DNA of 64,000 nt, from NCBI GenBank assembly GCA_006384855.1, contig VCJN01001070.1, forward strand, positions 62,001 to 126,000, read 5' to 3'. Source of the DNA: Tetraselmis striata. Taxonomy: Eukaryota; Chlorophyta; Chlorodendrophyceae; Chlorodendrales; Chlorodendraceae. Each line of letters begins with the position of its first letter. Position 1 is the first letter of the stretch. The notes under the pieces were generated by a model. It saw only the letters and a program-made list of their open reading frames with translations. It was not told the DNA's origin and ran no database searches. Below are positions 28,599 through 45,063 of this stretch, one piece after another. The translations under genes and the position numbers were made by a program.

Positions 28599-28603
28599 CA
28601 GTG
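28599..28603 (+). other. target site duplication of the copia element (left)
   Basis: CAGTG directly before the left LTR; the same five bases follow the right LTR at 41910-41914. Confidence 0.9.
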
Positions 28604-28928
28604 TGACAAAGGGATGGCTCAGGAACTGGAAGCAGAGAAGGAAGGAATGATTACAGTTCCGGAATTCCGGGCTATATATATGTATGGTCGTGCGGCTGAA
28701 CGGTCACACCTCGGTCAGCCTCGCACGCACTCTTGATGGATACGGGTAGTTAGCCGGTATCTCTAGGGTCTCTAAGTGAAACTACTAGAACTGCTAAGCG
28801 TTGCCCTTGTATAGGGGAGGGGAACCGCCGGGTCGCCGAACGGTCACCTGACATGGTGACGATGGTGATTTAACTGTCGGGTGTAGGGTTTGACAAAGCA
28901 TGGCTAGCCAGGGCCTGACTAGCCAACA
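28604..28928 (-). repeat. copia 3' LTR
   Basis: 325 bp, TG...CA. It differs from the 5' LTR at three sites (near 28791, 28848 and 28916), two of them C here versus T there. Confidence 0.95.
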
Positions 28929-29001: not shown

Positions 29002-31698
29002 CTAGGGGAGTTGGGGACGGGCACGGTGGTCACGCATGAAGCGGGCCCGCAACTGGGAGAATCTTGGGTTTGGAATAGCCTTGGTGAACATATCGGCAAG
29101 ATTGTCTGCAGACTGGACATACTCCACGTGAATGGCTCCAGACGCGACCAATTCACGAACGTAGTGATATCGGATGTCGACATGTCGCAACTTCCGGCCC
29201 ACAGAAAGTTGACGCAGGTTGCAAAGTGAGCCTTCATTGTCGGACTGGAGAGTGACGGGATGGTCCTTCAAGGCAGTCGGTCCGAGAACCTCGCACAAAA
29301 ACTGGCGAGAGAACATAATGACGCGTCCAGCTTCAGACGCGGAGACATATTCTGCTTCGCATGAAGAGAGAGCGGTAGTGACTTGCTTGTGGGAGCCCCA
29401 ACAGAAAGCGGACCCAGAGAGACAACCGACATGGCCGGATGTGGAGCGTCGGTCGTCGGCATCCCCTGCCCAGTCGGAGTCAACTGCGAACAATGGGACG
29501 AAGGACTGGGCTGTGGTCTGGGTATAGTGTAGACCAAGGGTAGCGGAACCGGCGAGGTAGCGAAGCACGCCCTTAGCTGCCAGCGAATGCTGGTCTGTGG
29601 GTTTGTGATTGTAAGAACAAAGCTTGGTGACTATCGCAGTGATGTCCGGGCGGGTACAGACAGAGAGCCACAGAAGGCTGCCCACCAGTTGCTTGTATAG
29701 AGACACTTGATCGGCTGGTAGGAGAGTGCCTGCAGTGGCTGAGAGACGGGTGTCCACGCGACACGGTAGGCTCTGCGGGTTGCAGTCTGTCATGCCGAAG
29801 GTGGCAAGGACATCGTGAATGTATTTAGTTTGATGAAGGATAACGGACCCGTCATCGTCGTCCCAGTCGAGGCCCATCCCCATGAGCCAGGTGCAAAGGC
29901 CAGCGTCGGTGCAGTCGAACTCGGCCAGCAAACGAGTCTTGAATGCCGGGTACCACGCGGGATCCGCGGCCTCGAGGATGATGATGTCATCAACGTAGAT
30001 TGCAACAGCTGCGAAGTCCCCGTCGGTGCCAACGAGTTGTACATACACACACCCATCCGATGTGCACTGTCGAAAGTTATTGCGCTTGAGATAGTTGTCG
30101 AGCTCTGTGAACCAAAGGCCGGGTGACTGGCGGAGGCCGTAGAGAGCGCGGAGGAGTCGACCCACCATAGGTTCGCCACTCTCAGAAAATTCCTCCATGC
30201 CGCGGGGAAGTTTTATGTAAATTTCCTCAGTGACCTTGGCATTGAGAAACGCAGTGGTGACGTCCATGTTGTAGATGCGACGACGAAGGTAAACAGCCAG
30301 GGCGAGCAGTATGCGGATGGAGACAAAAGAGACCACGGGCGCATACAGCTTGGTGCTGTCAAAGTCGATGCCGGGGCGTTGGTGGTTGCCCAAAACTACG
30401 AAACGAGCCTTGCGCTTGTCAACATACCCATTCTTTAAGAATTTAGTCCGAAAGGCATACCGGGTGCCGAGCGCCTTATGCCCAGCGGGGAGTGGACACA
30501 CTTTCCACGTCTGTTTAGCGAGAAGGGCAGTATTTTCTGCCGCAACGGCAGCCTGCCACTCCACAGCGTAGGGGGAGCGCATGGCTTCGTCATAAGTGAG
30601 CGGGTCAGGAGGTAGATCTCCACCAGGGGAATGGCGAGGTGCTGAGGCTGCAAGGCAAAAGCCGGAGGTAGGAGCTGGAGAACGGGGGTGAAATTCCCGG
30701 CCCGCGGTGTCAGGTCGAGGTATCGCGCACGCCAAGAGGGCGGTTGGCACACCGGCGTCGCACGGGATGTCGTGCTGAGAGAGGGTGGAGGGAAGCGAAA
30801 CTGAGTCCACGACTGCAGCCGGGGCAGCCGGGCATGAGGACTTGGTGGTCCCATAGTAGACATAGGAATCATCGGTGGTGCTGGAGCGGATACGAGTGCT
30901 GCGACGCAGTGGCGGGGAAGATGGCAGTGGTGGCAGCTGGCGGACGTCCACGGTAGCGTTGTCGGCGCCGTCGCTAGAGGAAGAATCAGCCACAGCGTGG
31001 GGGCTGACGTTGGACGGGGTAGTGGGAGGCAGGGAAGAACCACGTTGCAGGGGCGACGTGGGGGTCTCCGCAGAGAGGAGAGTTGACGAAGGTGAGGCCA
31101 GTGAGGAGGGCAGCTGGGGAAGAACCGGCTGCGGTGCGGGGGTGTGGTCGTCGTTGTCCACGGAGCGGGGAGGCGGAGAGGCAGGCGATATTGCAGGGTC
31201 CACAGATGGGTGTATGATGCCGGTGGAAATGTATGTGGGAGGTTGCGCATGGTCATCGTCGTCATCAACAGAGAGCGCTGGCGACTGAGGGTATAGCGTC
31301 GCCGCCTCACTTGGTGACTCCAACAAGGGTTCGCTAGAAAAGGACTGGGAACCGAATGGAAAGGTGTGGCCTTGCCTCCAGCTCTCGCAGAACACCGCAC
31401 TACGCGTTACCGAGATCGCGCCGGTGGTTGGGTTATACACCTGCCAGCCAGGAGAATTAGGCGACTGACCCACGTATATGCCCTTCCATGCGGCCACGTC
31501 CGCCTTTCGGCGAAGCGTACGGTCGAGGTGCACGTAGGCCGGGCAGCCGAAGACCCGCAGGCCGGAGAGGTCTACCTCTTGACCAGCAGCGAGCAACGGG
31601 ACATTTGCGGGTCCTGCGCTCCACTTGCGATTAATGATGTAGACTGCATGGTACCAAGAGAGCTCCCAGAAACTAAGGGGTAGGCCGGCATAGAGCAG
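29002..31698 (-). CDS. copia Pol, C-terminal part: integrase end, reverse transcriptase, RNase H
   Basis: In the same frame as the upstream Pol segment and separated from it only by TAA at 31699-31701. It begins with the rest of the integrase (LPLSFWELSWYHAVYIINR, then GLRVFGCPAYVH) and a long Ser/Pro/Thr-rich linker. The reverse transcriptase has MDVTTAFLNA, the YGLRQSPGLW motif and catalytic YVDDI at 29983-29997. RNase H follows, with DSDWAGD, SSCEAEY, SDNEGSL and the terminal ADMFTKAIP. The frame is otherwise open to TAG near 29002. Length and order fit an intact copia Pol end. Translation from 31698 would need readthrough or a functional source element. Confidence 0.9.
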   Translation of the reverse strand: MLYAGLPLSFWELSWYHAVYIINRKWSAGPANVPLLAAGQEVDLSGLRVFGCPAYVHLDRTLRRKADVAAWKGIYVGQSPNSPGWQVYNPTTGAISVTRSAVFCESWRQGHTFPFGSQSFSSEPLLESPSEAATLYPQSPALSVDDDDDHAQPPTYISTGIIHPSVDPAISPASPPPRSVDNDDHTPAPQPVLPQLPSSLASPSSTLLSAETPTSPLQRGSSLPPTTPSNVSPHAVADSSSSDGADNATVDVRQLPPLPSSPPLRRSTRIRSSTTDDSYVYYGTTKSSCPAAPAAVVDSVSLPSTLSQHDIPCDAGVPTALLACAIPRPDTAGREFHPRSPAPTSGFCLAASAPRHSPGGDLPPDPLTYDEAMRSPYAVEWQAAVAAENTALLAKQTWKVCPLPAGHKALGTRYAFRTKFLKNGYVDKRKARFVVLGNHQRPGIDFDSTKLYAPVVSFVSIRILLALAVYLRRRIYNMDVTTAFLNAKVTEEIYIKLPRGMEEFSESGEPMVGRLLRALYGLRQSPGLWFTELDNYLKRNNFRQCTSDGCVYVQLVGTDGDFAAVAIYVDDIIILEAADPAWYPAFKTRLLAEFDCTDAGLCTWLMGMGLDWDDDDGSVILHQTKYIHDVLATFGMTDCNPQSLPCRVDTRLSATAGTLLPADQVSLYKQLVGSLLWLSVCTRPDITAIVTKLCSYNHKPTDQHSLAAKGVLRYLAGSATLGLHYTQTTAQSFVPLFAVDSDWAGDADDRRSTSGHVGCLSGSAFCWGSHKQVTTALSSCEAEYVSASEAGRVIMFSRQFLCEVLGPTALKDHPVTLQSDNEGSLCNLRQLSVGRKLRHVDIRYHYVRELVASGAIHVEYVQSADNLADMFTKAIPNPRFSQLRARFMRDHRARPQLP

Positions 31699-34574
31699 TT
31701 AGCATTTGGCAATGCAGGCCAGGGTTCGCCAAGGGCGCTCCGCACGCGCGTTATGATGAGGGCTATAGCTGTCGCACGTCTGCATATCCACATTAGCGTT
31801 TTTGCAGATCTTCTCAAGAGAAGAGCACAGGAACACAGCAGCGCGGTCAACGCGGATCTGACGGACAGTGAAGCCCTTGCGGCGTGCGAAAGCCAAGAAG
31901 CGATCCACGGCACCTGCGGCCTCGGACTGCGTAACAAGACTGCCCGCCAGGTGAACATTCGTGCGCCGGCAGTTGGCGCCAATCATCCAGCGGCGACCGT
32001 GAAGCGACGGAGCCATAGGTCCCCATATGTCGAGATTGAGTACGGCGAATGGTTCATGCTCGAAACGTGAGCCGACGGTGCGAGGAACTGCAGCAACGGT
32101 GGACTTGACGAGTGCGCATACCTCGCAGAATGGGGCACCGGTAACATAGGGGAGACTGGGCACCAGTTTGGCGGTTCGCAAGATGCCGTCATGATGGGTG
32201 TGACCCATCCGCGCATGGAGGAGTGCAGCCTGGGCACGAGAGCCAGCAAAACCGCCCGAACGGCCGACAGCGGCCGCCGCCACCGGCACGGGAGAGGCGA
32301 GTGTGCGAGCACTAGCTTGGGGCGCATCGGCAGAAGGGGTCACGACAGCGTGCAACGCGTAGAGTCCGACATCGTGCATACGTTCCACATTGACGTCCGC
32401 GCCGCAGGGGAGCGTCATGGTAGAAGTGCTGGGGCCGAAGTAGAAAGTCGCGCCGGAGGACTGCGCTACGCTCTGGCTGAAAAGGAACTCCACTGCGTGC
32501 GGAAGAGCGGCGGTGAGAAGGCCGGGAGCGTGGAGTACATTCCGCAAAACGGAGACGACTGGTTGACCGGCGGTAGATGTGTAAGTAATAACGTGTAAGG
32601 TACGCACACCGTAAACTGTTGCGCGTAGGCCGCCAAGGCGAAACTGGTCCGAGGATGCCAGTGTCGTGTAAGTATAGAAACGACGACGCCGCCCAGCGAC
32701 GTGCCACGATGCGCCGCTGTCCAGGAGGAATAGCTGAGGACTGGGAGGTGCGGTGTTTGGAAGAACATCACACGCGGGTAGAGCCGCACAGGGTATAGAT
32801 GTGCAAAGATAGGCCGCCACGGCCCGGAAGAACCAGACCGCGAGGTTGCGGTCGACGCAGCCTCCGAGGGCTGCACACAACTCGTTGTTGGGGATAGATG
32901 TGCAGAGCACCGCGTTCCTAGGGAAACCCATGATGAGAGCGCGCACTAGAGCATCCGGTTCCTCCATCTTTCCAAAATGCATCAGCATGCCAGCACCAGG
33001 AGATCCGTCCGACTGAGGACGAAAGGCATAACTCCCTGCCGTTGCGACTAGTTTAGGGAGGTGATGTTGGTCAGGGCGAATGCATGTCCATTCGGGCGAC
33101 ATGCCGTGCGATGACAGCACCGACGCCAGTGGCGGAGCCGAGTGACGTTGAGCGGCGTAGTGGTCCATGAGAGAGCTATAAGGAGCGGCGATGGTCCACA
33201 GGAGTGTACGCCGGGCAGCCGACGAACCGCAGTCCAACGCGTTCACGATGAGAGGCTCGCCAAGAGAGAGGATAAGCTCCGGACACTTCAGCGCTCCCGG
33301 CACATTTTCTATTATGTAAGAAACTGAGGCAGGCTGCGCATCCGCCAGATGCCGTACAATGCGAATGACGGCTGCCATGACGCCGCTGCGCATATCCTCC
33401 CACCCGCGACCGCAGCCAGCACTAGACCAGGGCTCACAGCAGGGCCCCGCAGCGACCAGGGTGACTGGAGGCATGGCTGCAAGCACATCCTCAGTGATTA
33501 AGGTCACGTCTTGCGGCGTAGAGGAGAACGCCTCATGAAAGGCGTCCTCGTGGAGCTGGGTCGGGTACTCGGCAAACAGCATCCGAAGGCGGTCCGCAGC
33601 CCAACGTCTCCGCACGGGACTAATTTCGCAAAGTGTCACCCTAGTGACCACGAAGCCTGCCGTCAGCATGCCGTCGAGCAGAGAGAGCGTCCCGCCGCAG
33701 CACAGCCCAAAGAAGTGATTGATAATGAGAGCATGAGGAAGAGGCACCAGGCCCACGGTCTGAAGGGACGGAAGCTCCGGGGCGGAGGCGGGGGGTGCAG
33801 CAGCAGCTGTGAAAACCAATGCGGATGGCGCGCACATGTCCATGGTTGCGGTGCAGCCAGTCGGAGTCGCAGGGTCCGTGACTGGTGAGTGATGGTCAAT
33901 GGCGGGTCGCTCCAACGGCAGTGATACGCTGTCAAGGGCATGCGTGCAAAGTGAGGAATGGCCACGTGGCCGGAGTGGACCAGCGGCAGATGGGGCATCA
34001 GTGTAGAGAGAGTAGTGACGCCCACAATTTGTGTGGTCGATGAGGGGTGAGGCCGATCCACGTAGGGCACATGTGTCGTGCTGACCGCCGCGCCCAGCCA
34101 GACCAACGCCGCCACTCCGCGCGGTCGTGGTGTCGTTGAGGAAACCGCAGTCACCGCAGTCAGTATAGGTGGCGCACTCAGCGCCCTCTCCGCCAGCACG
34201 CGTTCCATCCATCACGTCGAGCAGCTCATCGAATCCATCACAGCCGGCCGAGACGGAGTAACTGCGCTGTCCTTGCGGGAGCTCAGTCGGTGTAGTCTGG
34301 GCGACGGTGGGGGAGGGCACATTGAATCCGTCGCAGATGGGAAGGGAGAGCGGAAAAGCGGGGGCGTGAGCCATGCACACGAAACCGTCCCCAGGCAACT
34401 CCACGGTGGGGGGGGGCGCTGGCGATAGCGCCAGTGGGCCGCCCGCCAGGGAACACAGGCGGCTGGGACTTGACAGGGTTCGGGCGTGCTCCCGCTGAAG
34501 TGCGAAGGCCGCCGCTGGCAAGCCACGCAGGTTTCTCCGCCGGCGGGGAATCAAGGAGCCTGGAGCCGTTGACG
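31699..34574 (-). CDS. copia Pol, N-terminal part: DNA methyltransferase, protease, integrase
   Basis: A 951-codon open frame read from 34554 (a TTG; no ATG needed if made by frameshifting from gag), ending at TAA 31699-31701. Residues 1-270 are low-complexity Pro/Ala/Ser/Thr with no known domain. Residues 276-583 form a C5 DNA methyltransferase. An aspartic protease follows (LFLLDSGASWHVAG, about 608-621), then the GAG-pre-integrase zinc region (HARMGHTHHDGILR, CEVC) and the integrase core (LDIWGPM, IRVDRAAVF). The stop falls in the integrase core, where relatives have an ordinary residue before LLYAGLP. A methyltransferase upstream of protease is absent from ordinary copia elements. Confidence 0.9.
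32806..33729 (-). other. C5 cytosine DNA methyltransferase domain inside copia Pol
   Basis: Motifs appear in the canonical order. Motif I is NHFFGLCCGGTLSLLDGM (SAM binding), followed by the motif II acid in VTLCEISPVRR. Motif IV is VAAGPCCEPWSSAG, whose second Cys (codon 33436-33438, residue 373) aligns with the catalytic Cys of PCQ/PCN. Motif VI is YIIENVPG with the ENV triad, and motif VIII is DCGSSAARRTLLWTI. The C-terminal helix region is MGFPRNAVLCTSIPNNELC then ALGGCVDRNLAVWFFRAV. The ending resembles DNMT3-type enzymes more than bacterial Dcm. All residues needed for activity seem present, with Glu in place of Gln/Asn after the Cys. Expected reaction: SAM-dependent 5-methylation of cytosine in DNA, possibly the element's own cDNA. 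Confidence 0.85.
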
Positions 34575-34579
34575 TGCCG
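34575..34579 (+). other. target site duplication of the nested LTR element (left)
   Basis: TGCCG before the left LTR, repeated at 40324-40328 after the right LTR. Confidence 0.9.
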
Positions 34580-34952
34580 TGTAAGCTTTAGGCGAGGGAC
34601 TTTAGCATAGGCAAGGGAAAGGTTTGCAGCAAAGGAGATTGTTACAGTGTACCGGGGTGTACATGGCTATATACAACTATCGGCTCAGCAGTCGGTCGCA
34701 TGCGCAGGCATTAGGCTTGGGTATGCAATCTAGGCTTGGAGTCATCAGGGAGCCATCGGGGCGTAATGGCTGACGAGGGCATGATCACGTGGGCGTGATC
34801 ACGTGTAACATGTGCGCAGTCTATATGTATGGGCGGATGAGCAGTATGTATATAGGCGTGCTAGTATATAAGTGAGTGGACAGTATGGGTATGGGTGTAC
34901 GCATGAATGCGGGTATAGGTATGCAGGTAGGGTTATGGTGGTAACCCTAACA
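34580..34952 (-). repeat. nested element LTR (3' LTR by transcription)
   Basis: It contains a direct repeat of GATCACGTG spaced by GGC, with CACGTG palindromes, at about 34783-34804, a plausible bZIP/bHLH-type protein site. Confidence 0.9.
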
Positions 34953-35170
34953 TTCCATCCCGGCCCCAAAAAAAGCAGACTCATGGGAATGATACGCAGG
35001 GGAAGCGGGTGGGGTATTCGGCGGACATGGCACGGTGATCGGTGTGCGCAAGCATTGCGACAGGGACAAGCAGATTGTGTCGGGCATAATCATGGAGCAT
35101 ATCACTACGACCTGTCAGGTTAAATAGCATATGTCGCCCAGAAATTGTGGAATACGGGATGGCAGTGCAT

Positions 35171-35337
35171 AGCAAAAGGCAAGCGGAGTTGGCAGGAGTT
35201 GGCAGGCGGACTGTGGCAAGCTTACTGCAAAGCAATATGTGCGACATTGCCATGGCAAAAGGCAAGCATAGTTGGCAGGAGTTGGCAGGCTGGGTTTGAC
35301 AAGCTGACTGCGAAGCAATATGTGAGACGTTGACATC
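35171..35337 (+). repeat. 83-base tandem duplication
   Basis: Two units share CAAAAGGCAAGC, AGTTGGCAGGAGTTGGCAGG and AAGCAATATGTG. Inside each unit GTTGGCAG is itself doubled. Confidence 0.8.
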
Positions 35338-38261
35338 CAGACTTTATCGGGGCGAGTTTGGCATATGCTACGTATGTTCGATACACAGGTATTGGCGAGT
35401 TCTAACTTTCAGTCATGTATTTCTGCATATGGTATTTTGGCGATGTCAATGTAATCCGCAGAGTCCACTTGTTGGTATAACAAGTTAGCGGGTGTGAGCG
35501 GGTTTGTGCCGTAGCGGGCGTCAAGCGGAGTGCATGTAGTTGCGGATTGGTAGGCATCGTCGCATAAAATAAAACTGACGAGGGAGAAGGTATATTGCCA
35601 GGCGTTATCACGTAACGAGCATGAGCGGTAAATGTTTTGTTATAACCGAGGTGAAGCGGGGATTGCGGTCTTTCATTATTATGCTACAAGGGTCGTTAGG
35701 GCGGAAAATATTGTAAATAAGTAAAACGGGCAAGCCGAGGAGCGTCTACGTGGATACGGCAAGGGATGAAGTGGGCTTGTATTGTAAATGCGTGCACACG
35801 TGTGGGTGTAGCGGCAAAGATATTTCGCAGAGGGCGGCATGCCATTGATAAACAAAGTTCATGGGAATAATTACCTAGAGGCACATGTGTGGGTGTACGG
35901 GAGACACGGAGCCTATGGGTTGATATGAAAACTTTCGCAGGTTGGCAAGTCTGTCGGTAGATCCTATTGCGCATAATGGGTCACCATATGTTTTCCAAAT
36001 AGTAGGGCGTGCGGCATCGAGCAAGGTGGCCGGCAGTGGGTACAGTACTTCTGGAATGACCAAATCAAGACAGAATTTGTCCGAGGCGGGCAGGCATACT
36101 TATAAGCATAACCCGTTGCTGGAATTATATTACGTGAATGTGAATATGGTTACGATAGTCATAGTTTGTTTCGGTGGTATAGTTGTGGCGAATTGCTCGA
36201 TTGTTAATTCTAGATTAACTTGAAGGTGGGAGTAGTGCATGGTAAATATGAGAGAAAATCGGGCAACGTGTCAGTAGATCTGTGTCAAGCAGTTGAATGT
36301 CGCGTTTTGTTTATTCTTGGCGTAAATCCGGACGACGAGACCGGGCATCGGTCTCATTCTAGGAGCTTTTATTGCAATATAATATGTTCGGGTGCGGCGG
36401 GTGCGGGCGGGGGTCAGTGGTTTGCTAGGTATGGTAGTGAGTGACGGCGGCTTGGGCGAGCAGGTGCCGGAGAGTGGCATGCATAGTGTGGTCTCAGCGT
36501 GATCTAAGAACCATTTTGTATGAAAAAGCGTCATATTGTCAAAGCGTATTCATGCGAAAAAGTTCTTATTGGGCATAGGTGCTGTATTTGGCATGGTTAT
36601 ATCGTGAAACTTTTGGACAGCGGTTAAGGCGTATGCATACGCATATATTAGCCAATTGCGAATGGCAACAATGTTTGGAAGGGCGCGTGTCTCGTTGGCT
36701 ATGTAATGGCCCAAATATTCGTGTTCGTTAAGGCAGTTGCATCAGTATGCGATGTTTGGCAAGCAAAATAAGCGTGGTTTTCAGGTGTATGAAGTGTTCA
36801 TTGAGCGAGGTACACAATACCAAAACGTTGCCAAACTAGATAAGAATAAACGCGGTGCTATGCGAATGCAAAACAACGTTACCCAGCATCAAGCGTTGAA
36901 TTGCCAATGGATTATGGACAATCCAAATACCATGGTCTGAAATTCAAGCTCACCGAACCGAGTTTTGAACGATATTGTGCGGGCATCCGTATATGTTTGA
37001 TTGCAAGTTGGTGTTAGATCAAAACTCTGTCGAGGGTGGAATGTATACAATATAGCCGGACATCATATCTATTACGAGCATGGTGGCGTGTGGTACTAGA
37101 ATATTATTCGGCGGTTATACATATATATAGTTGTATATGCATATGTATATGTATATGTGCAATCTGTCGGTAGTCAATGCAAATGCGCATGCTACCATAA
37201 ATTGCATGCTCGGTCAAATAGGATAAGTGCAGCATAAGGCGGAAGAGATTACCCAACAAATTCTGTGTCGAAAAGGGCGCTTAAGTGCGTTGTGTGTATT
37301 ATTTTCTGATTCAGGAGGTGAGTGGCAATATGTTTTGCCGGGTGGTAGGCGGGTATCTTAGAGCAATGGTATTTTGAAGCTGAAGCCGGGGCGGTACTGC
37401 TGGAAGGGGATTTAACGGCTGGCATGCTTGTGTATATGTTTAAGTATGAAGGTTCTTATTCGTTTTAGTACATCAGTAGCATACCAGTCGGTGGTAACAA
37501 CGAAAAAATCGCGATTTAATTTACTGGGCAACAGTGCGGCCATTGCGTGGTACACGCGAATCATGGTGTAAGAGCATATCATTGGGATCCCTTAAAAGGC
37601 GTGGTGTTGGCCTGTATAGCACCTCGGTATAAATAGAGCGGGGTTCGGCCGGATACAAGTGATATAAGTGCGGCCGCCGGGGAGCGAAATATGGGTGCCG
37701 GTAGTTCAGCTATTGGCTAGGTGGTAATTATGAGCAGAAATGATACGCGAGAACACCGTTGAAATTGTTCTTAAATTTGGTTAAACAGTCGTATGGACGA
37801 ATTTAACCTCTGCTCAGCAGTATCTAGTAATGCGCAACTGAAATGTGCCGGACTCAGACGCTACAGGCATAATTGATACGGCTGCGGCGGCGGCCTTCCG
37901 TGTAGTAATAATAACATAGGGCTGTACGCCGTAATTTCCCAGCGGCGCGGTACATACAGGCGGTAGCGACTACCGGTACCAGGATCATTAAATATTTGCG
38001 GGCAGGCGGCATTTATGTTAAAACAGTGTATCGCATCGCCGGAGTCTTTAACAGTTTTATAAACCAGTGTGGACGGCCGGGCAATTTGTGTTTTAGCATT
38101 ATCTGGTAAGGATTAGTAGTAAATATAATTATTGGACGTACAGGTACCTGTAGAGGTTACGAAAGCTTTTTTTTTTTTGGTTTTCAAAGCGGGGCTGACG
38201 GCGATATTAATATCGGGCATATGTGTCTTACCTTCAGGCTCTAGCTCAAGAGCCCTGACGT

Positions 38262-38321
38262 GTGCAGACCGCATGCTGCGGCTGTGCGCGGTGTGCAGAC
38301 CGCATGCTGCGGCCGTGCGCA
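38262..38321 (+). repeat. 30-base tandem duplication
   Basis: GTGCAGACCGCATGCTGCGG occurs twice, followed each time by (C/T)(T/C)GTGCGC. Confidence 0.8.
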
Positions 38322-39642
38322 GTGGTCGCCTGCGTATCGACAGTGCTATCCGCAAGGTACCCGGGTAGGCATCGACGACCCAGTTGGTCGGTGGCATAGG
38401 CAGGTTGTTAGTGGCAGATGTGGCGATGTAAGTATGTGGCCGAAACACGCGTGGATATGGTAATAGGGGATGAGGCGGTTTGAACTAGATGGGGCGCTAG
38501 GAGTTCCCGAGTTACCTAAATTCGCTATCCGCGGCGCTATAATACTCGTTAATATAGTTAATAGTCGCTACCTCTATCTGTAGCGGTTAAGCCGTAAACT
38601 CTGAATCTGTAGCGGTGGAAGAAAACTATGGGATGGGTGTGGTATAGCGTGCTGTAATCGTCCTAATAATAATAAGTAGATTATTATTATAATGCTGAGT
38701 ATAGATATAGGATATCAGCAGTGATTTAGTCGTTAGTATGACTCACGAAGTGTGCCTACGCACGAATCCTTTTCATACATGGAACATATGCGTAATGTGG
38801 CAGGTCAATAAACACAGTATGACCGATGAACGATGTAGTAGACTGACTATCGCATGTACAAAAACTCAGATAGACCGTGGTAACGCAAAAGAAAAACATT
38901 TAACGAACAGCGAACTGTAGTCGTTACCAGTACCTGTACTCGTTAGGTCAGGCGCAAGTAGTCGTTATTAATTAATTACTATAGGCGTTCACGTGGGGTC
39001 ATTACGATGACTGAAGCCGTGGCGGTGGGCGGGCAGGCAGTTCGCCAGGCAGGTTTGGGTTTTGTCAGTGCAGGGCCGGGGGGCGTCGGCAATATTTTCG
39101 GGTAGCAGCATGTTTCGCTATTGCGGATAACAAGTGGCAGCAGCTGTGTCAGCTGGGATGGCAAAGCAGGCAGATGCTAGCAGGAACCGGCACAGCTCGT
39201 GCGAGGGCAACGAGTGTGTCGACTCGACAGGCAACGGGCCTGAAGAGGAGGCCCCGTCATGCGCAGACACCGGCACGCAGGGCTCGGCCGCGCTCTCAGG
39301 AGTTAGCTCGTTCACTGGGGGCAAGCCAACAGGCATAGTCTCGGGAATGGGGAACAATACGGCCAGTCAGACAGATTATCGATTGGTTTTCAATTCGAAA
39401 TCAAATCTAGGCTGGCCCCAAACCGTCGTTAACCGGGAAGGCGGTGCGAGTTCAGCTAGGTAATACCCTTAGCTGCCTTCTGGCAGCCATTGTCTGGTGC
39501 CACTGTTGTGCCTTGCTCGTCGACGAGCATTTCTTGACGGAGTCGCCCGTTCGGCGACATCCATCGCATATGCCGTCATATTCGGTCAGCGCTGAGGGTT
39601 AGTGGCAGAGGGATGCGTGGCGGCGTGGGGGAGCGTGCGGCC

Positions 39643-39666
39643 GGGGGGGGGGGGGGGGGGGGGGGG
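39643..39666 (+). repeat. G24 homopolymer
   Basis: Inside the nested LTR element, about 300 bases from its 5' LTR. Confidence 0.9.
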
Positions 39667-39950
39667 CGAAGTGACGTTCATTGGCGATGCGGGATGATGC
39701 GTAGTGATGTCCGTGGCTAGGGCGCGGGTCGTGGGTTTGGCCAGCTCGGCCCGGATTACACGGGCCACCGGGCGGTGTCGATATGTACTTCGTTGGTTAG
39801 CGGCGGCGGCGGCGGCAGTGATAGGCTGGTCGTTCACGATGGCAGGTGCGGGGAGGGGGGGCGACCGGCAGCAGCGCCAGGCGCGGCGGGGGACGGGCAT
39901 GCGCAGTGGAAACGCAACGGGGGATCTTAACCAGAGCTCAGCGAAACCAA

Positions 39951-40323
39951 TGTAAGCTTTAGGCGAGGGACTTTAGCATAGGCAAGGGAAAGGTTTGCAG
40001 CAAAGGAGATTGTTACAGTGTACCGGGGTGTACATGGCTTTATACAACTATCGGCTCAGCAGTCGGTCGCATGCGCAGGCATTAGGCTTGGGTATGCAAT
40101 CTAGGCTTGGAGTCATCAGGGAGCCATCGGGGCGTAATGGCTGACGAGGGCATGATCACGTGGGCGTGATCACGTGTAACATGTGCGCAGTCTATATGTA
40201 TGGGCGGATGAGCAGTATGTATATAGGCGTGCTAGTATATAAGTGAGTGGACAGTATGGGTATGGGTGTACACATGAATGCGGGTATAGGTATGCAGGTA
40301 GGGTTATGGTGGTAACCCTAACA
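39951..40323 (-). repeat. nested element LTR (5' LTR by transcription)
   Basis: It differs from the left LTR by A/T near 34671 and G/A near 34901 (left coordinates). Confidence 0.95.
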
Positions 40324-41150
40324 TGCCGTGTTTGCAAGCAATACGGTGCTGTGTGACGGGAACGACCACATCGACTGCATTCACGGTCGGGGTAGGACTG
40401 GGTAGGGAGCGACGCCGACATTGCCACTGGTGGTGGGGTGACGGGAGCAGGAGCGCGAGTAATAAGGTCAACGTGCGGTGACAACGACGGGCGCCTGGCG
40501 GCCTCACGAAGAGCCTTGATCATGACCTTGCCGCGAAGCGCTGCGTAGTCGCAGTGGATGCCATCTGCCCGTAGCTCCTCCAAGTCGCCCCGCAGTTTCT
40601 CATAGCGCTCGTGAATACCGGGAACAAAATATAGATCCATGAAGTCGTCGTCCGTAAGCTCCGCCTCCAGGGTTGTACGCAAGGTACGGCGCGCAGTCTC
40701 CATGCGATAAAGGTAGGCGCCTAAGTCTTCATGTGCGAGTTGACCACGGCGCAGGCCGTCCAGTACCGTTTTTACGTGCCTATGCTTGTGCTGCTGAAAC
40801 ATGTTTAACACCGCTCCCCATGCAGCCGCGCCATGATGGTTGTCGATAGCGAGGACATCGTTGTCAAGAGGGGTACAATAATTGACCTCCGCAGTTGCAA
40901 GAGGATTTTGTTGAACGGCTGCCTCCACGCACTCGAAGAGAAGATTTTGACGCAGGTAGCCACTGCCCCCGGCCAGGGCCTCAGCGAGGCCGTTTCTGGC
41001 AGCCCAAGATGTAAAGGACTTGCGCCATGTGATAAAATCTTCAATGCTTGCCCGGTCCGCAAGTTTGGGAGCGCGCTGTGGCTCGACACGTTGCATGGTG
41101 CTCTCCTCAAGAAGGACAGCGGGGGATGCGCCGGAGGTTGCCGAAGTCAT
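40324..41150 (-). CDS. copia Gag, interrupted at its 3' end
   Basis: The frame starts at ATG 41150 and runs 275 codons before the nested LTR. It has a Ty1/copia-type Gag helical core (IEDFITWRKSFTSWAARNGL through VLDGLRRGQLAHEDLGAYL and YFVPGIHERYEKLRGDLEEL). A CCHC zinc knuckle of exact CX2CX4HX4C spacing lies at 40338-40379 (CSRCGRSRHTAPYC). Gag packages the element RNA into virus-like particles. In this copy the last codons read into the LTR and stop at 40170. If the insertion and one TSD are ignored, the Gag frame runs on about 97 codons past the junction to a TGA, overlapping Pol, which lies in the +1 frame. Confidence 0.9.
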
Positions 41151-41584: not shown

Positions 41585-41909
41585 TGACAAAGGGATGGCT
41601 CAGGAACTGGAAGCAGAGAAGGAAGGAATGATTACAGTTCCGGAATTCCGGGCTATATATATGTATGGTCGTGCGGCTGAACGGTCACACCTCGGTCAGC
41701 CTCGCACGCACTCTTGATGGATACGGGTAGTTAGCCGGTATCTCTAGGGTCTCTAAGTGAAACTACTAGAAATGCTAAGCGTTGCCCTTGTATAGGGGAG
41801 GGGAACCGCCGGGTCGCCGAACGGTCACTTGACATGGTGACGATGGTGATTTAACTGTCGGGTGTAGGGTTTGACAAAGCATGGCTAGCCAGGGCTTGAC
41901 TAGCCAACA
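41585..41909 (-). repeat. copia 5' LTR
   Basis: 325 bp, TG...CA, followed by the CAGTG target duplication at 41910-41914. Confidence 0.95.
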
Positions 41910-42056
41910 CAGTGCATAACCTCGTATCGTCGCCCGCCATGCCCCGCCGACCGCCGACCGCCGACCGCCGTCGCCCGGCTCCAGATTCAAACCATCGTCA
42001 GCGCGCGACGGGCAGCGCAGGGCCTGGCAAGTGTCGTCTCGCCTCTGGGCGGATGG

Positions 42057-42434: not shown

Positions 42435-42854
42435 GGCGGGTGGTATCTTGCCGCATCTTGCGCGGCGTCCGCGGGTCGTAGTCGTTCTCATCGTCGTGAT
42501 TATGGTGACGTCAGCATGACCGCGAACGAGTAAGCAAATAAGCAATTTATTAGGGGGTTCCCGCGTCAAATTGCAACGCCATATTGCAACGATACGCGGT
42601 ACACGTCAGCCGTACGCCCGCGTACGCACCAAAATGCAACGCTCGCGGCGTTGCATTTTGGCTGAAACTGCAACGAGCGACTACTTCTGCAACGTCTGAG
42701 TTTGACCGTGATCTGGGTAGTCGCGGATACGGGTACGGGTGGATCCCGTACCCGGTCACCACCTGCCGGGACTCCGCCGGCGCCTGCGCCATTTCAAAAC
42801 TGCTCGCAGCTCCCCGCCTCTCCCCCAGTCACCGCAGCAAAACCCGGCACCACC

Positions 42855-43157
42855 ATGGCGGAATCCACTCAGGAGACGGCAGACGTAAAGAAGGAGAGCG
42901 CTCAGGGTGCGTCCCACGTGTGGAAACGGCGTTGGCAGTCGGACGTCCTGTGGATCGCGGCGCTGCTGACCGCCGCGGATCGTGCCAAGGTTGCTGCGCA
43001 CTGGCGCGACACCAACCCACACGGCAAGAAGCTAGCTATGGAGGCTCGCCTGTACGACGCGCTCAAGGAAGACTGCCCTCCGCACACGGAGGAGCTCCCT
43101 TCGGGGCGGTCGCTGCTGCACCACACGGAGCACATCCTCCAGCTGGCTCTCCTCTAA
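42855..43157 (+). CDS. second ORF of the Harbinger element
   Basis: 101 codons from ATG 42855 (MAESTQETADVKKESAQG) to TAA 43157. The middle, HVWKRRWQSDVLWIAALLT followed by a basic-acidic helix, has the Trp spacing loosely expected of a Myb/SANT-like DNA-binding ORF2, which PIF/Harbinger elements use with the transposase. That identity is not secure. Its 3' end overlaps the 3' end of the transposase frame antisense by about 125 bases. Confidence 0.4.
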   Translation: MAESTQETADVKKESAQGASHVWKRRWQSDVLWIAALLTAADRAKVAAHWRDTNPHGKKLAMEARLYDALKEDCPPHTEELPSGRSLLHHTEHILQLALL

Positions 43158-43910
43158 AATTCTGCTGTCGCCACGCCGACCTTGGATAGGACCTGTAAGG
43201 TAAGTGATAAGTCCGTCTGGCACAGCAACAATTTGATATTTCAAACCGTGTTTTTTCTTGTGTCCAGAGTATATCGCTTCCTGACTGTATTTCACACGAC
43301 GACATCCACGCAAAGTGCAGTCGATGAACCCGAAGACAGGCAGCATCACCCCCGACTTCCGCTGGATGGCACGCACGTATCCTGGCAGCCTGCTGTCGAG
43401 CGCACCGGTCATAACGACGTGGCCCCATCGCTGCGTGAGCCACTTCACCATGTGCGTGCATATCTTCGAGATACGCTTCGGATTCATGCGAAGCTTCGCC
43501 CCCAGGCTGTGCGCAGCGCCTGCCGTTCCTAGCCGTGCCAGCAAAACCAGCAAGCCGGTCGTTCCTGTGAACTTGCCTTGCCTACTTTCGCAGCGAAGCA
43601 CATCAGGGATCTTCAGGTGCTCCAGCAGCTGGTCGAATACCTCAGGGCGGCACCGGTACGTGTCTTGAAAGAGCGCCTCGTCAACGCGCTCTACGGCGAG
43701 GTCAATGTTTAGCCGGTTGAGGTGGGACGGCCAGGCTCGGGATACGGGGCGCATGAGGCGACGCAGGCGGCGGCGGTGCCGAATGGTGCGCTGCAGGAAT
43801 ATAGCTGCGAGCTCCGGCTCAGGCGCGGAAATGGACAGTAGCCGAATCGCCCGTGACAGCGCCGTCCGGGCCTGGTGCACCTCGGCCGCGTTGCCTATTA
43901 GACGGCCCAT
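43032..43910 (-). CDS. PIF/Harbinger DDE transposase, probably C-terminally truncated
   Basis: ATG 43910 is chosen; the frame is open to the TIR but lacks an earlier ATG. It has the N-terminal helical region (TYRCRPEVFDQLLEHLKIPD), a helix-turn-helix-like part (LRMNPKRISKICTHMVKWL), the first catalytic Asp in VFGFIDCTLRG and the second in GPIQGRRGDSRILEESQL. The expected third acidic residue, usually in a GDsgYp-like block 40-60 residues on, is missing: the frame instead runs through ORF2 antisense and ends RRAVFLERVVQASLHS. The transposase is likely inactive unless spliced to another exon. DDE enzymes of this family cut at the TIRs and insert into 3-bp targets. Confidence 0.75.
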   Translation of the reverse strand: MGRLIGNAAEVHQARTALSRAIRLLSISAPEPELAAIFLQRTIRHRRRLRRLMRPVSRAWPSHLNRLNIDLAVERVDEALFQDTYRCRPEVFDQLLEHLKIPDVLRCESRQGKFTGTTGLLVLLARLGTAGAAHSLGAKLRMNPKRISKICTHMVKWLTQRWGHVVMTGALDSRLPGYVRAIQRKSGVMLPVFGFIDCTLRGCRRVKYSQEAIYSGHKKKHGLKYQIVAVPDGLITYLTGPIQGRRGDSRILEESQLEDVLRVVQQRPPRRELLRVRRAVFLERVVQASLHS

Positions 43911-44140
43911 GACGTAGGGTGCAGGGTTGTAGCGATTACCCGCGTGAAGTCGCGTGGGGCGCGAAAGATTGTGAGCTGCCAGAAGGGTGGTGGCGGCAGG
44001 GTGATGTGACGCATGCCGGCGCCGGTACCGGTATATACCCGCAGCAGTTGTAACGATTACATCATGACTCGGACACCGCGCGACGTGGCGGTATATTATG
44101 CGTTGCAATATGGCGTTGCAATTTGACGCGGGAACCCCCT

Positions 44141-45063
44141 ATTATGTTATAATACCCCATGCAGCAGTACACAGGTATCATCGACCGCTACTGTAGTAAG
44201 TATGGAACACATTTACCCGTACGGACGCGGTACGGTACATTTATATCCGGTAAATTATGAGGGCAGGATTGATACTGCTACCTCGTATTACCGACGTATT
44301 AAAACCCGTATTACCGCCGGGTAGTCGTACCGCCTACCCGGACGTACACTCGCGATACGCGATGGCAGTCCATACGTGAGTGCTACAGAGGAGAAGACGA
44401 TGATAATTGCAAAACAATACGGAAAGTATGCGAAATATTTGGGAGCTCAGCAACAGACCAACAGACGTGCACAGTCGGCGCGACACTACAACAGCGGGAA
44501 ATAACGGCGGCTGACGAGCCGTCATGTCGGCATTCGCTGATTTTCCGGCTTGCTATCGCGCCGATTCTTCTGTGCAATTACTTTTGTGTACGACCTTTGT
44601 ACCCTGAGACCGGCTACGGCTTCCGACTCGAGCAGTCGTTGAACGGCTTTTGACCTCCCACCTTGGCACAACCGAGGCCGCTTGCAGCCTCCCCAACTCC
44701 TCCCCCTCGTCGGACGTCAAACCCGGGGCACTGGATACGTCGGCGAGGACTGACGTGGGGAGTGCACAGCGTATCGCGTGCTTCTGACCATCCTGCACCG
44801 GCAGGTGCGGTTCGTAAGCGGTATCCACCTGGTCTCCGCTGCGAGGCAGTCGGAACGCTCGTGGAATATCTTGCGCCCGATGTCGGAACAGACGAAGACC
44901 GTCATGATCGAGGTCCGGTGTGACGAGGTGCGCTGTCGGACCGCTGCTGCCTAGCTCTATCGGGGGACAGGGGTCCCTGCGATGCTCAGTCCCACGCCTG
45001 GCTCCGTGAGACTGACCCTGTGCGTCCGGGCGATGCTTCCCCTCTAACTGTTTTTTTACAACT
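44141..45063. other. intergenic, no recognised gene
   Basis: The DNA is AT-rich with CGGTAC words near the transposon and GC-rich nearer the transporter gene. ORFs on both strands lack recognisable domains. Confidence 0.45.

Follow-up and report, generated by a model that had tools for sequence, protein, structure and literature searches.

Cytosine methylation is a standard means by which hosts silence transposons, and it is paradoxical when a transposon carries a methylation writer as a fixed part, as few cases are known to show. What such an enzyme does for, or to, the element that carries it is the question raised by a locus of the green alga Tetraselmis striata (Chlorophyta, Chlorodendrophyceae). 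The window analysed here, a stretch of 64,000 nucleotides of contig VCJN01001070.1, contains a Ty1/copia retrotransposon with a C5-cytosine DNA methyltransferase (DNMT) domain in its coding region. The explanation that we favour, with a probability of roughly 0.6, is that a DNMT3-type de novo cytosine methyltransferase is a fixed and selected part of the Gag-Pol polyprotein of a Ty1/copia family in this alga, where it would methylate the DNA of the element itself. Its two parts differ in strength: the sequence makes a real, selected and catalytically competent DNMT very probable, and action on the element's own DNA is favoured by a narrow balance.

The domain and its place in the element

The element reads on the minus strand from its 5' to its 3' long terminal repeat (LTR; Table 1). 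It has the hallmarks of Ty1/copia elements: the LTRs begin with TG, end with CA and are flanked on both sides by the 5-bp target duplication CAGTG, and the order Pol_BBD, pre-integrase region, SH3 and RVT_2 places the integrase upstream of an RVT_2-type reverse transcriptase (RT). The integrase core rve received no Pfam call in the lineage of the window copy. The DNMT is inserted into this otherwise regular copia order between Gag and a protease that carries DSGASWH, and the Pfam and copia order thus bear out the position proposed in the first-pass annotation, which had been made from the letters alone.

The motifs named in that annotation are likewise present. Pfam DNA_methylase matches the window domain with E=2e-6 and 27.9 bits (cut-off 22), and in the motif numbering of C5-methyltransferases (I, IV, VI, VIII) the domain shows motif I as HFFGLCCGG, motif IV as GPCCEPWS with the catalytic Cys codon at 33436-33438, ENV of motif VI at 33301-33309, a motif VIII Arg at 33211-33213 and a C-terminal helix. 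The catalytic Cys, ENV and one motif VIII Arg are invariant in the aligned rows from copia elements and from the long interspersed nuclear element (LINE) and gypsy-type carriers described below.

With regard to affinity, the predicted fold and the full-length profile alignment point to a DNMT3-type domain. DNMT3 chains top both VIA lists (predicted structures), with a DNMT3-type fold across the whole domain, and in hhalign the profile of the retroelement DNMTs aligns with DNMT3A over columns 3-308 and with DNMT2 over columns 3-147 only. The DNMT3-like tail suspected at first reading is recovered in the C-terminal half. In phylogenies with a small reference set that includes four sequences entered by hand, the retroelement DNMTs tend to group with DNMT3A/B (SH-aLRT/UFBoot 81.8/80, FastTree 0.929). 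A plain phmmer search of the window domain against the PDB gave nothing at 1e-3, and the profile search returned HaeIII (4.8e-9), a tRNA methyltransferase (1.6e-7) and DNMT3A (2.1e-7). The retroelement enzymes differ from the catalytic domains of DNMT3A and DNMT3B in several respects: identity in the alignment is 14-15%, all three versions (copia, LINE and gypsy) seem by eye to have an extra stretch before motif IV, another residue takes the place of the second motif VIII Arg in the copia and LINE versions, and the companion domains PWWP and ADD were not called in the Pfam scans of the window and the copia lineages. Searches of viral contigs (45 loci) and prokaryote genomes (21 loci) yielded partial matches only, at 25-50% identity, with close relatives absent from both collections. 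Among the 50 viral entries listed in a structural search, C5-methyltransferases of phages, giant viruses and herpesviruses reached a TM-score to the query of at most 0.67.

Copies, lineages and relatives without the domain

The genome searched comprises 224 Mb in 2903 contigs, and the matches listed are the best 128 of 491 candidates for the copia DNMT, 150 of 897 for DNMT-less copia, 150 of 871 for the RT of the window lineage, 138 of 373 for the gypsy DNMT and 123 of 541 for the LINE DNMT. A tblastn search with the 309-residue domain gave at least 131 matches, some of them pieces of one copy, and the domain is therefore not restricted to the window copy. The window lineage (A) has at least 18 full-length DNMT matches at 95-100% identity, 16 of them free of stops, and further clusters lie at about 39% (lineage B), about 35% (C) and 33-34% (C and D) identity to the window domain. 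The presence of many matches, full-length and stop-free ones among them, argues against a chance occurrence.

At least 25 of the 131 matches sit in open frames that are 2000 residues long or longer. Full-length relatives in a single frame were found in B (2162 residues), C (2299) and D (2147), each with DNMT, integrase core and RVT_2, and with many copies in the coding frame of a retroelement the domain is a retrotransposon-encoded DNMT. The Pfam order in intact lineages is DNMT, Pol_BBD, rve and RVT_2, with Pol_BBD called in A, C and D and not in B, DNA_methylase above its cut-off in A, B and C and below it in D (18.5 against 22 bits), and rve listed in B and C (under its cut-off) and in D (above it). 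The lineage-A zinc knuckle was judged by eye only; Pfam gives zf-CCHC in lineage C and, under its cut-off, in D. Gene models tell the same story: four EukProt proteins labelled 'jgi/Tetstr1' are 93-99% identical to the DNMT region of the lineage-C polyprotein, and the EukProt models P0001-P0003 join DNA_methylase and RVT_2. The matches listed include 24 to the lineage-A RT at 71% identity or more; a comparison by eye pairs 23 of these with a lineage-A DNMT that shares their contig and strand, the exception being on contig C1098. Four places with a lineage-A DNMT (C1481, C1383, C1240 and C1556) have no lineage-A RT among the matches listed.

The same genome houses a copia family with frames of 1561 residues in which Pfam finds gag, Pol_BBD, rve, SH3 and RVT_2 and no methylase (locus L122). 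Matches to this family occur at L122 and on contigs C440, C805, C1230, C1303, C1435, C1776 and C2881, many per contig, and the family possibly forms dense arrays. In the unrooted RT tree, A and B group together (0.997), and A, B and the DNMT-less family are separated from C and D (0.987); the DNMT tree likewise sets A and B (86.7/88) apart from C and D. As far as they were compared, the histories of DNMT and RT thus appear to agree, and the DNMT-less family would be either an outgroup or a family that has lost the domain. With the RT tree unrooted, the candidate histories are one capture followed by loss in the DNMT-less family, a capture later than the branching of that family, and two independent captures, one in A+B and one in C+D.

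Selection on the methyltransferase

The first-pass annotation had rightly put the LTR identity at about 99% (3 mismatches in 325 positions, 99.1%) and had concluded from it that selection kept the domain until recently. The second step does not follow: LTR identity tells the insertion time of a copy only, and the claim of selection therefore needs dN/dS. This was estimated by Nei-Gojobori counting, section by section, on non-redundant copies (L001 equals the window copy, L002 equals L039, L004 equals L040 and L026 equals L042). In lineage C (11 copies, 54-55 pairs) the values were 0.72 for the linker, 0.20 for the DNMT and 0.38 for the stretch from protease to pre-integrase. In lineage A (7 copies, 21 pairs) they were 0.59, 0.34 and, from protease to integrase, 0.43. 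One pair in lineage D gave 0.26 for the DNMT, and lineage B has one clean copy among seven. In A and C the DNMT is under purifying selection and lies below its neighbouring sections; the values are not near 1, nor are the motifs broken in all relatives.

It is the contrast between the DNMT and its neighbours that these numbers are meant to convey, rather than absolute values. L003 (stop) among the 8 loci of A, and L027 (stop) and L032 (gap) among the 13 loci of C, were excluded, and the copies used are thus selected for DNMTs free of stops and gaps; L049 stops short of the last motif. Gaps in the flanks (C linker in 5 of 11 copies, C protease in 2 of 11, A linker in 6 of 7, A protease to integrase in 3 of 7) may shift the frame and inflate the dN of the flanks. 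For the published retrotransposon DNMTs, PMC5890265 gives dN/dS below 0.2.

LINE and gypsy-type carriers

Beyond what the first-pass annotation had seen, homologous DNMTs are carried by copia elements of four or more divergent lineages, by a LINE and by a gypsy-type family. The LINE on contig C2687 (L054, L044 and L055) has a frame of 3505 residues, 3231 of which were read, with endonuclease, RVT_1, PCIF1_WW (E 8e-15), DNMT and RNase H (25.1 bits, cut-off 25.8). Two methyltransferase-type domains therefore stand in one retroelement, the PCIF1 family being one of mRNA-cap adenosine methyltransferases. At least five matches to the LINE DNMT were found at four places, that on C596 in two pieces, and the LINE domain is 36% identical to the lineage-A copia DNMT over residues 8-321 (E 1e-40).

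The gypsy-type frame of 1771 residues contains DNMT, RVT_1, RNase H, H2C2, rve and a PHD finger. The 9-kb stretch showed no LTRs, and the assignment to the gypsy class rests on these domains. Its DNMT has at least 39 full-length matches at 95-100% identity, three with a stop, and is about 30% identical to the copia DNMTs over residues 6-262 (E 1e-14). In all three copies read, the domain is split, with motif I in an upstream frame and the remainder in the pol frame. The metagenome protein P0073 (71% identical) starts at about the same point, and the domain may contain a frameshift site. Gypsy-type loci L134-L137 (C1950) also carry a C-terminal stretch, FDPWAG...TSPWF, that by eye resembles another methyltransferase.

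A single clade of copia, LINE and gypsy DNMTs is favoured with moderate support. The maximum-likelihood tree gives SH-aLRT/UFBoot values of 86.1/91 for the copia DNMTs, 81.4/81 for copia and LINE and 74.7/78 for all three classes, with FastTree supports of 0.859, 0.874 and 0.897. A second kind of DNMT, of 325 residues and intronless, is present in about 12 near-identical matches (L009-L014, L016-L020 and L025; nine were read) beside a divergent frame on the opposite strand, and is perhaps cargo of another mobile element. It does not appear in the match lists of the three queries (copia, LINE and gypsy), and the cross-matches between the classes are therefore not generic. On C2009, a contig that may be contamination, L024 is a long DNMT free of introns that to the eye looks bacterial or phage-like.

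A tblastn search for a host DNMT3 gene with human DNMT3A at E 0.1 returned 47 matches, which a comparison with the other match lists assigns to gypsy-type, copia or 325-residue DNMTs; short exons could escape such a search, which does not show absence. Some matches to PF00145 look like host-gene exons, for example on C726, C1756 and C11. It is possible, though somewhat less likely than not, that one DNMT3-type domain has moved among Ty1/copia, gypsy and LINE elements within one algal lineage, with retroelements as the main holders and exchangers of DNMT3 and the host gene lost or still unfound. If so, retroelements would trade an epigenetic module that has a different place in the polyprotein of each.

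Outside the genome, a protein alignment search in which the 7997 best candidates were scored gave 63 matches at 1e-3. Beyond the Tetstr1 proteins these include P0005, which joins DNMT and Pol_BBD on an ENA contig of 5499 bases, P0008-P0010 (ENA) and P0012; below them, other PF00145 proteins follow from 3.8e-9 upward. The LINE DNMT forms a group with P0008 and P0010 (98.9/99). The homologue search with the gypsy query gave ten Tetstr1 rows and P0073, and no charophyte relatives of the gypsy DNMT, its reach being relatives that share 5-residue words. With P0005, P0008-P0010, P0012 and P0073, the clade of retroelement DNMTs therefore also exists outside the T. striata genome, in metagenome sequences.

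Function of the domain

The likeliest function, as far as sequence data can indicate, is that the enzyme methylates the DNA of its own element de novo. The position of the domain in Gag-Pol suggests that the enzyme would be made within the polyprotein and packed into virus-like particles together with RT and integrase, where it would act de novo, most probably at CG, on freshly made double-stranded cDNA or else on the site of insertion. New copies would then arrive pre-marked, which may protect the cDNA if the cell responds to foreign DNA that lacks methylation, or may determine the state of chromatin at the insertion. Self-methylation draws its support from the conserved catalytic site, from the constraint and from the CG activity of the SymbioDIRS DNMTs, SymbioDIRS-Dnmt3 being described in PMC5890265 as methylating CG de novo in yeast.

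Several observations weigh against this reading. The copia family without a DNMT is abundant, and the domain is therefore not needed for copia retrotransposition here. Many DNMT-bearing copies decay: in lineage B, six of seven aligned copies have gaps in the DNMT and four of those six a stop. The dN/dS values come from simple counting on mixed copies, with three broken-DNMT copies excluded and some dead copies used. Motif IV of lineage A is GPCCEPW instead of PPCQPW, and the replacement of the second motif VIII Arg in the copia and LINE versions was seen by eye. The Foldseek search with the window model puts HaeIII first by E-value, and in the profile comparison bacterial enzymes score above DNMT3 over the N-terminal part. 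In the yeast assay reported in PMC5890265 no activity was seen for KnitGypsy-Dnmt3 and SymbioLINE-Dnmt, which its authors call inconclusive.

The methylation footprint is also at most weak. The observed/expected ratio of CpG is 0.84-0.98 in DNMT-bearing stretches (flanks included) and 0.83 in the DNMT-less one. Transition shares at CG/CHG/CHH/A-T were 0.130/0.087/0.078/0.098 in lineage A, 0.030/0.022/0.017/0.020 in young C, 0.111/0.113/0.057/0.088 in older C and 0.192/0.245/0.179/0.175 in B. CG transitions are thus in slight excess in A and young C, about level with CHG in older C and under CHG in B; these data suggest no CG-specific footprint in older C or in B. Among the published DNMT-bearing elements, CG depletion was seen for SymbioLINE only (PMC5890265).

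Among the alternatives, the one that survives best is that the DNMT has the host and not the element as its target, methylating host chromatin or competing elements, or slows the spread of its own element (self-restraint), with the constraint reflecting reduced harm to the host. Such options are discussed in PMC5890265. The copia matches together with the full-length gypsy ones represent a potentially large dose of enzyme if expressed, and DNMT-less copia elements thrive in the same genome. The location in Gag-Pol, however, favours delivery in particles over free nuclear activity, and the CpG observed/expected ratio of the whole window, 0.95, shows no sign there of long-term CG loss. We consider a host-directed role unlikely.

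The unusual motif IV of lineage A and the lost second Arg would fit a domain that had lost catalysis and become a nucleic-acid-binding or structural part of Gag-Pol. This is quite unlikely, since the catalytic Cys and ENV are invariant across copia, LINE and gypsy, the predicted fold is retained and the DNMT has the lowest dN/dS of the sections. It is very unlikely that the domain modifies RNA, be it that of the element or a tRNA primer. RNA modification has been proposed for SymbioLINE (PMC5890265), the profile of the retroelement DNMTs scores nearly as well with DNMT2 as with DNMT3A in HMMER (30.4 and 31.7 bits), and the LINE relative bears the PCIF1-type domain; the hhalign alignment, however, extends over the full length only with DNMT3A, and DNMT3 chains lead the VIA lists. 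An assembly artefact or a chance fusion at one locus, for which the broken state of the window copy might speak, is refuted by the same junctions on many contigs, in P0001-P0003 and in the metagenome protein P0005, and its probability is negligible.

Relation to known elements

DNMT-bearing LINE and DIRS elements in Symbiodinium and gypsy elements in Klebsormidium have already been published, as have Symbiodinium copia elements without any DNMT (PMC5890265). KnitGypsy-Dnmt3 of Klebsormidium nitens is alike in having a Dnmt3-type domain in the polyprotein of an LTR element, intronless copies and purifying selection. Compared by description, it differs as a gypsy element of a charophyte with the DNMT in Pol, whereas the T. 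striata element belongs to Ty1/copia, has a chlorophyte host and places its DNMT after Gag and before the protease. SymbioDIRS-Dnmt3 and SymbioLINE-Dnmt share with the Tetraselmis elements the retrotransposon-borne DNMT, conserved catalytic residues and DNMT-less sister elements in the genome, and are, by the same source, a DIRS element with tyrosine recombinase or have the DNMT in a LINE open reading frame upstream of the RT frame. In the T. striata LINE, unlike SymbioLINE-Dnmt, a single giant frame holds RT, DNMT and RNase H in this order. The suggestion of a further capture in a different host and position is in agreement with these comparisons.

One sentence of PMC12344493 names LTR Copia and DIRS among DNMT3-embedding elements, without element, organism or analysis, and cites the 2018 paper in which gypsy is the LTR case; its main text makes no mention of Tetraselmis. 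The passages of PMC9998398 that were available report DNMT5a and DNMT6 in Tetraselmis and are silent on retrotransposon DNMTs there. Our literature search, with supplements and subscription papers outside its scope, found no description of retrotransposon DNMTs in Tetraselmis or chlorophytes, nor of three classes in one genome. The present analysis extends the known cases by a detailed description of the Ty1/copia class, by the chlorophytes as hosts and by one genome where three classes of retroelements with homologous DNMTs stand beside abundant DNMT-less copia. Fresh DNMT-bearing and DNMT-less copia insertions offer a natural comparison in one cell, which lets the purpose of a transposon DNMT be tested; Tetraselmis is culturable.

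The window copy and its neighbourhood

The window copy of the DNMT-copia is dead, because of the nested insertion in gag, the frame change at a run of C and the TAA before the RT. The single open frame through the RT described in the first-pass annotation does not exist in this copy: the stop precedes the RT, and the C run and the nested element split gag from the DNMT (Table 1). The window LTR also adjoins copies L039 (99.1%) and L040 (98.2%). Among six independent lineage-A copies the C run measures 8 (L004=L040 and L006), 9 (window=L001 and L008) or 10 (L002=L039 and L003), and the pattern was not found in the lineage-A copies L005 and L007. With 8 C, L040 reads from gag through RT in a single frame. 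The variable run may be a slippage site, a mutation or an assembly error.

Table 1. Features of the copia element and its nested insertion (positions in the window)
Feature	Position	Strand	Basis or remark
5' LTR of copia element	41585-41909	-	CAGTG duplication at 41910-41914
Gag, N-terminal part	40324-41150	-	Frame 2; matches gag of L040; zinc-knuckle-like CSRCGRSRHTAPYC stretch directly before the nested insertion
Nested second LTR element, not part of the DNMT element	34580-40323		LTRs 34580-34952 and 39951-40323; TGCCG duplication; splits gag
Open frame: linker, DNMT, protease, pre-integrase, integrase region	31702-34579	-	Open reading frame and Pfam
Homopolymer run, 9 C on coding strand	34408-34416	-	Between gag and DNMT; throws DNMT out of the gag frame
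C5-cytosine methyltransferase domain, probably DNMT3-type, 315 residues	32797-33741	-	Pfam DNA_methylase, motifs, predicted fold
Pol_BBD	32518-32730	-	Pfam E=4e-6
gag_pre-integrs	32101-32241	-	Pfam E=1.8e-4, under its cut-off
In-frame TAA, separates integrase from RT	31699-31701	-	Absent in L039 and L040
C-terminal pol, one open frame	29002-31698	-	SH3-like, RVT_2, RNase H region (the last assigned from its position in copia order; no Pfam call)
SH3_retrovirus	31381-31584	-	Pfam E=2.6e-19
Reverse transcriptase RVT_2	29761-30513	-	Pfam E=1.2e-51
3' LTR of copia element	28604-28928	-	325-bp repeat of 41585-41909, 3 mismatches; CAGTG duplication 28599-28603

The nested LTR element is young, with 2 differences in 373 LTR positions and an interior of about 5 kb. 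No frames of at least 200 residues were found inside it, and it is probably a non-autonomous LTR element. Beside the copia 5' LTR, at 42548-44144, inverted repeats of 44 bp (98%) surround a frame with DDE_Tnp_4, and this stretch is probably a DNA transposon.

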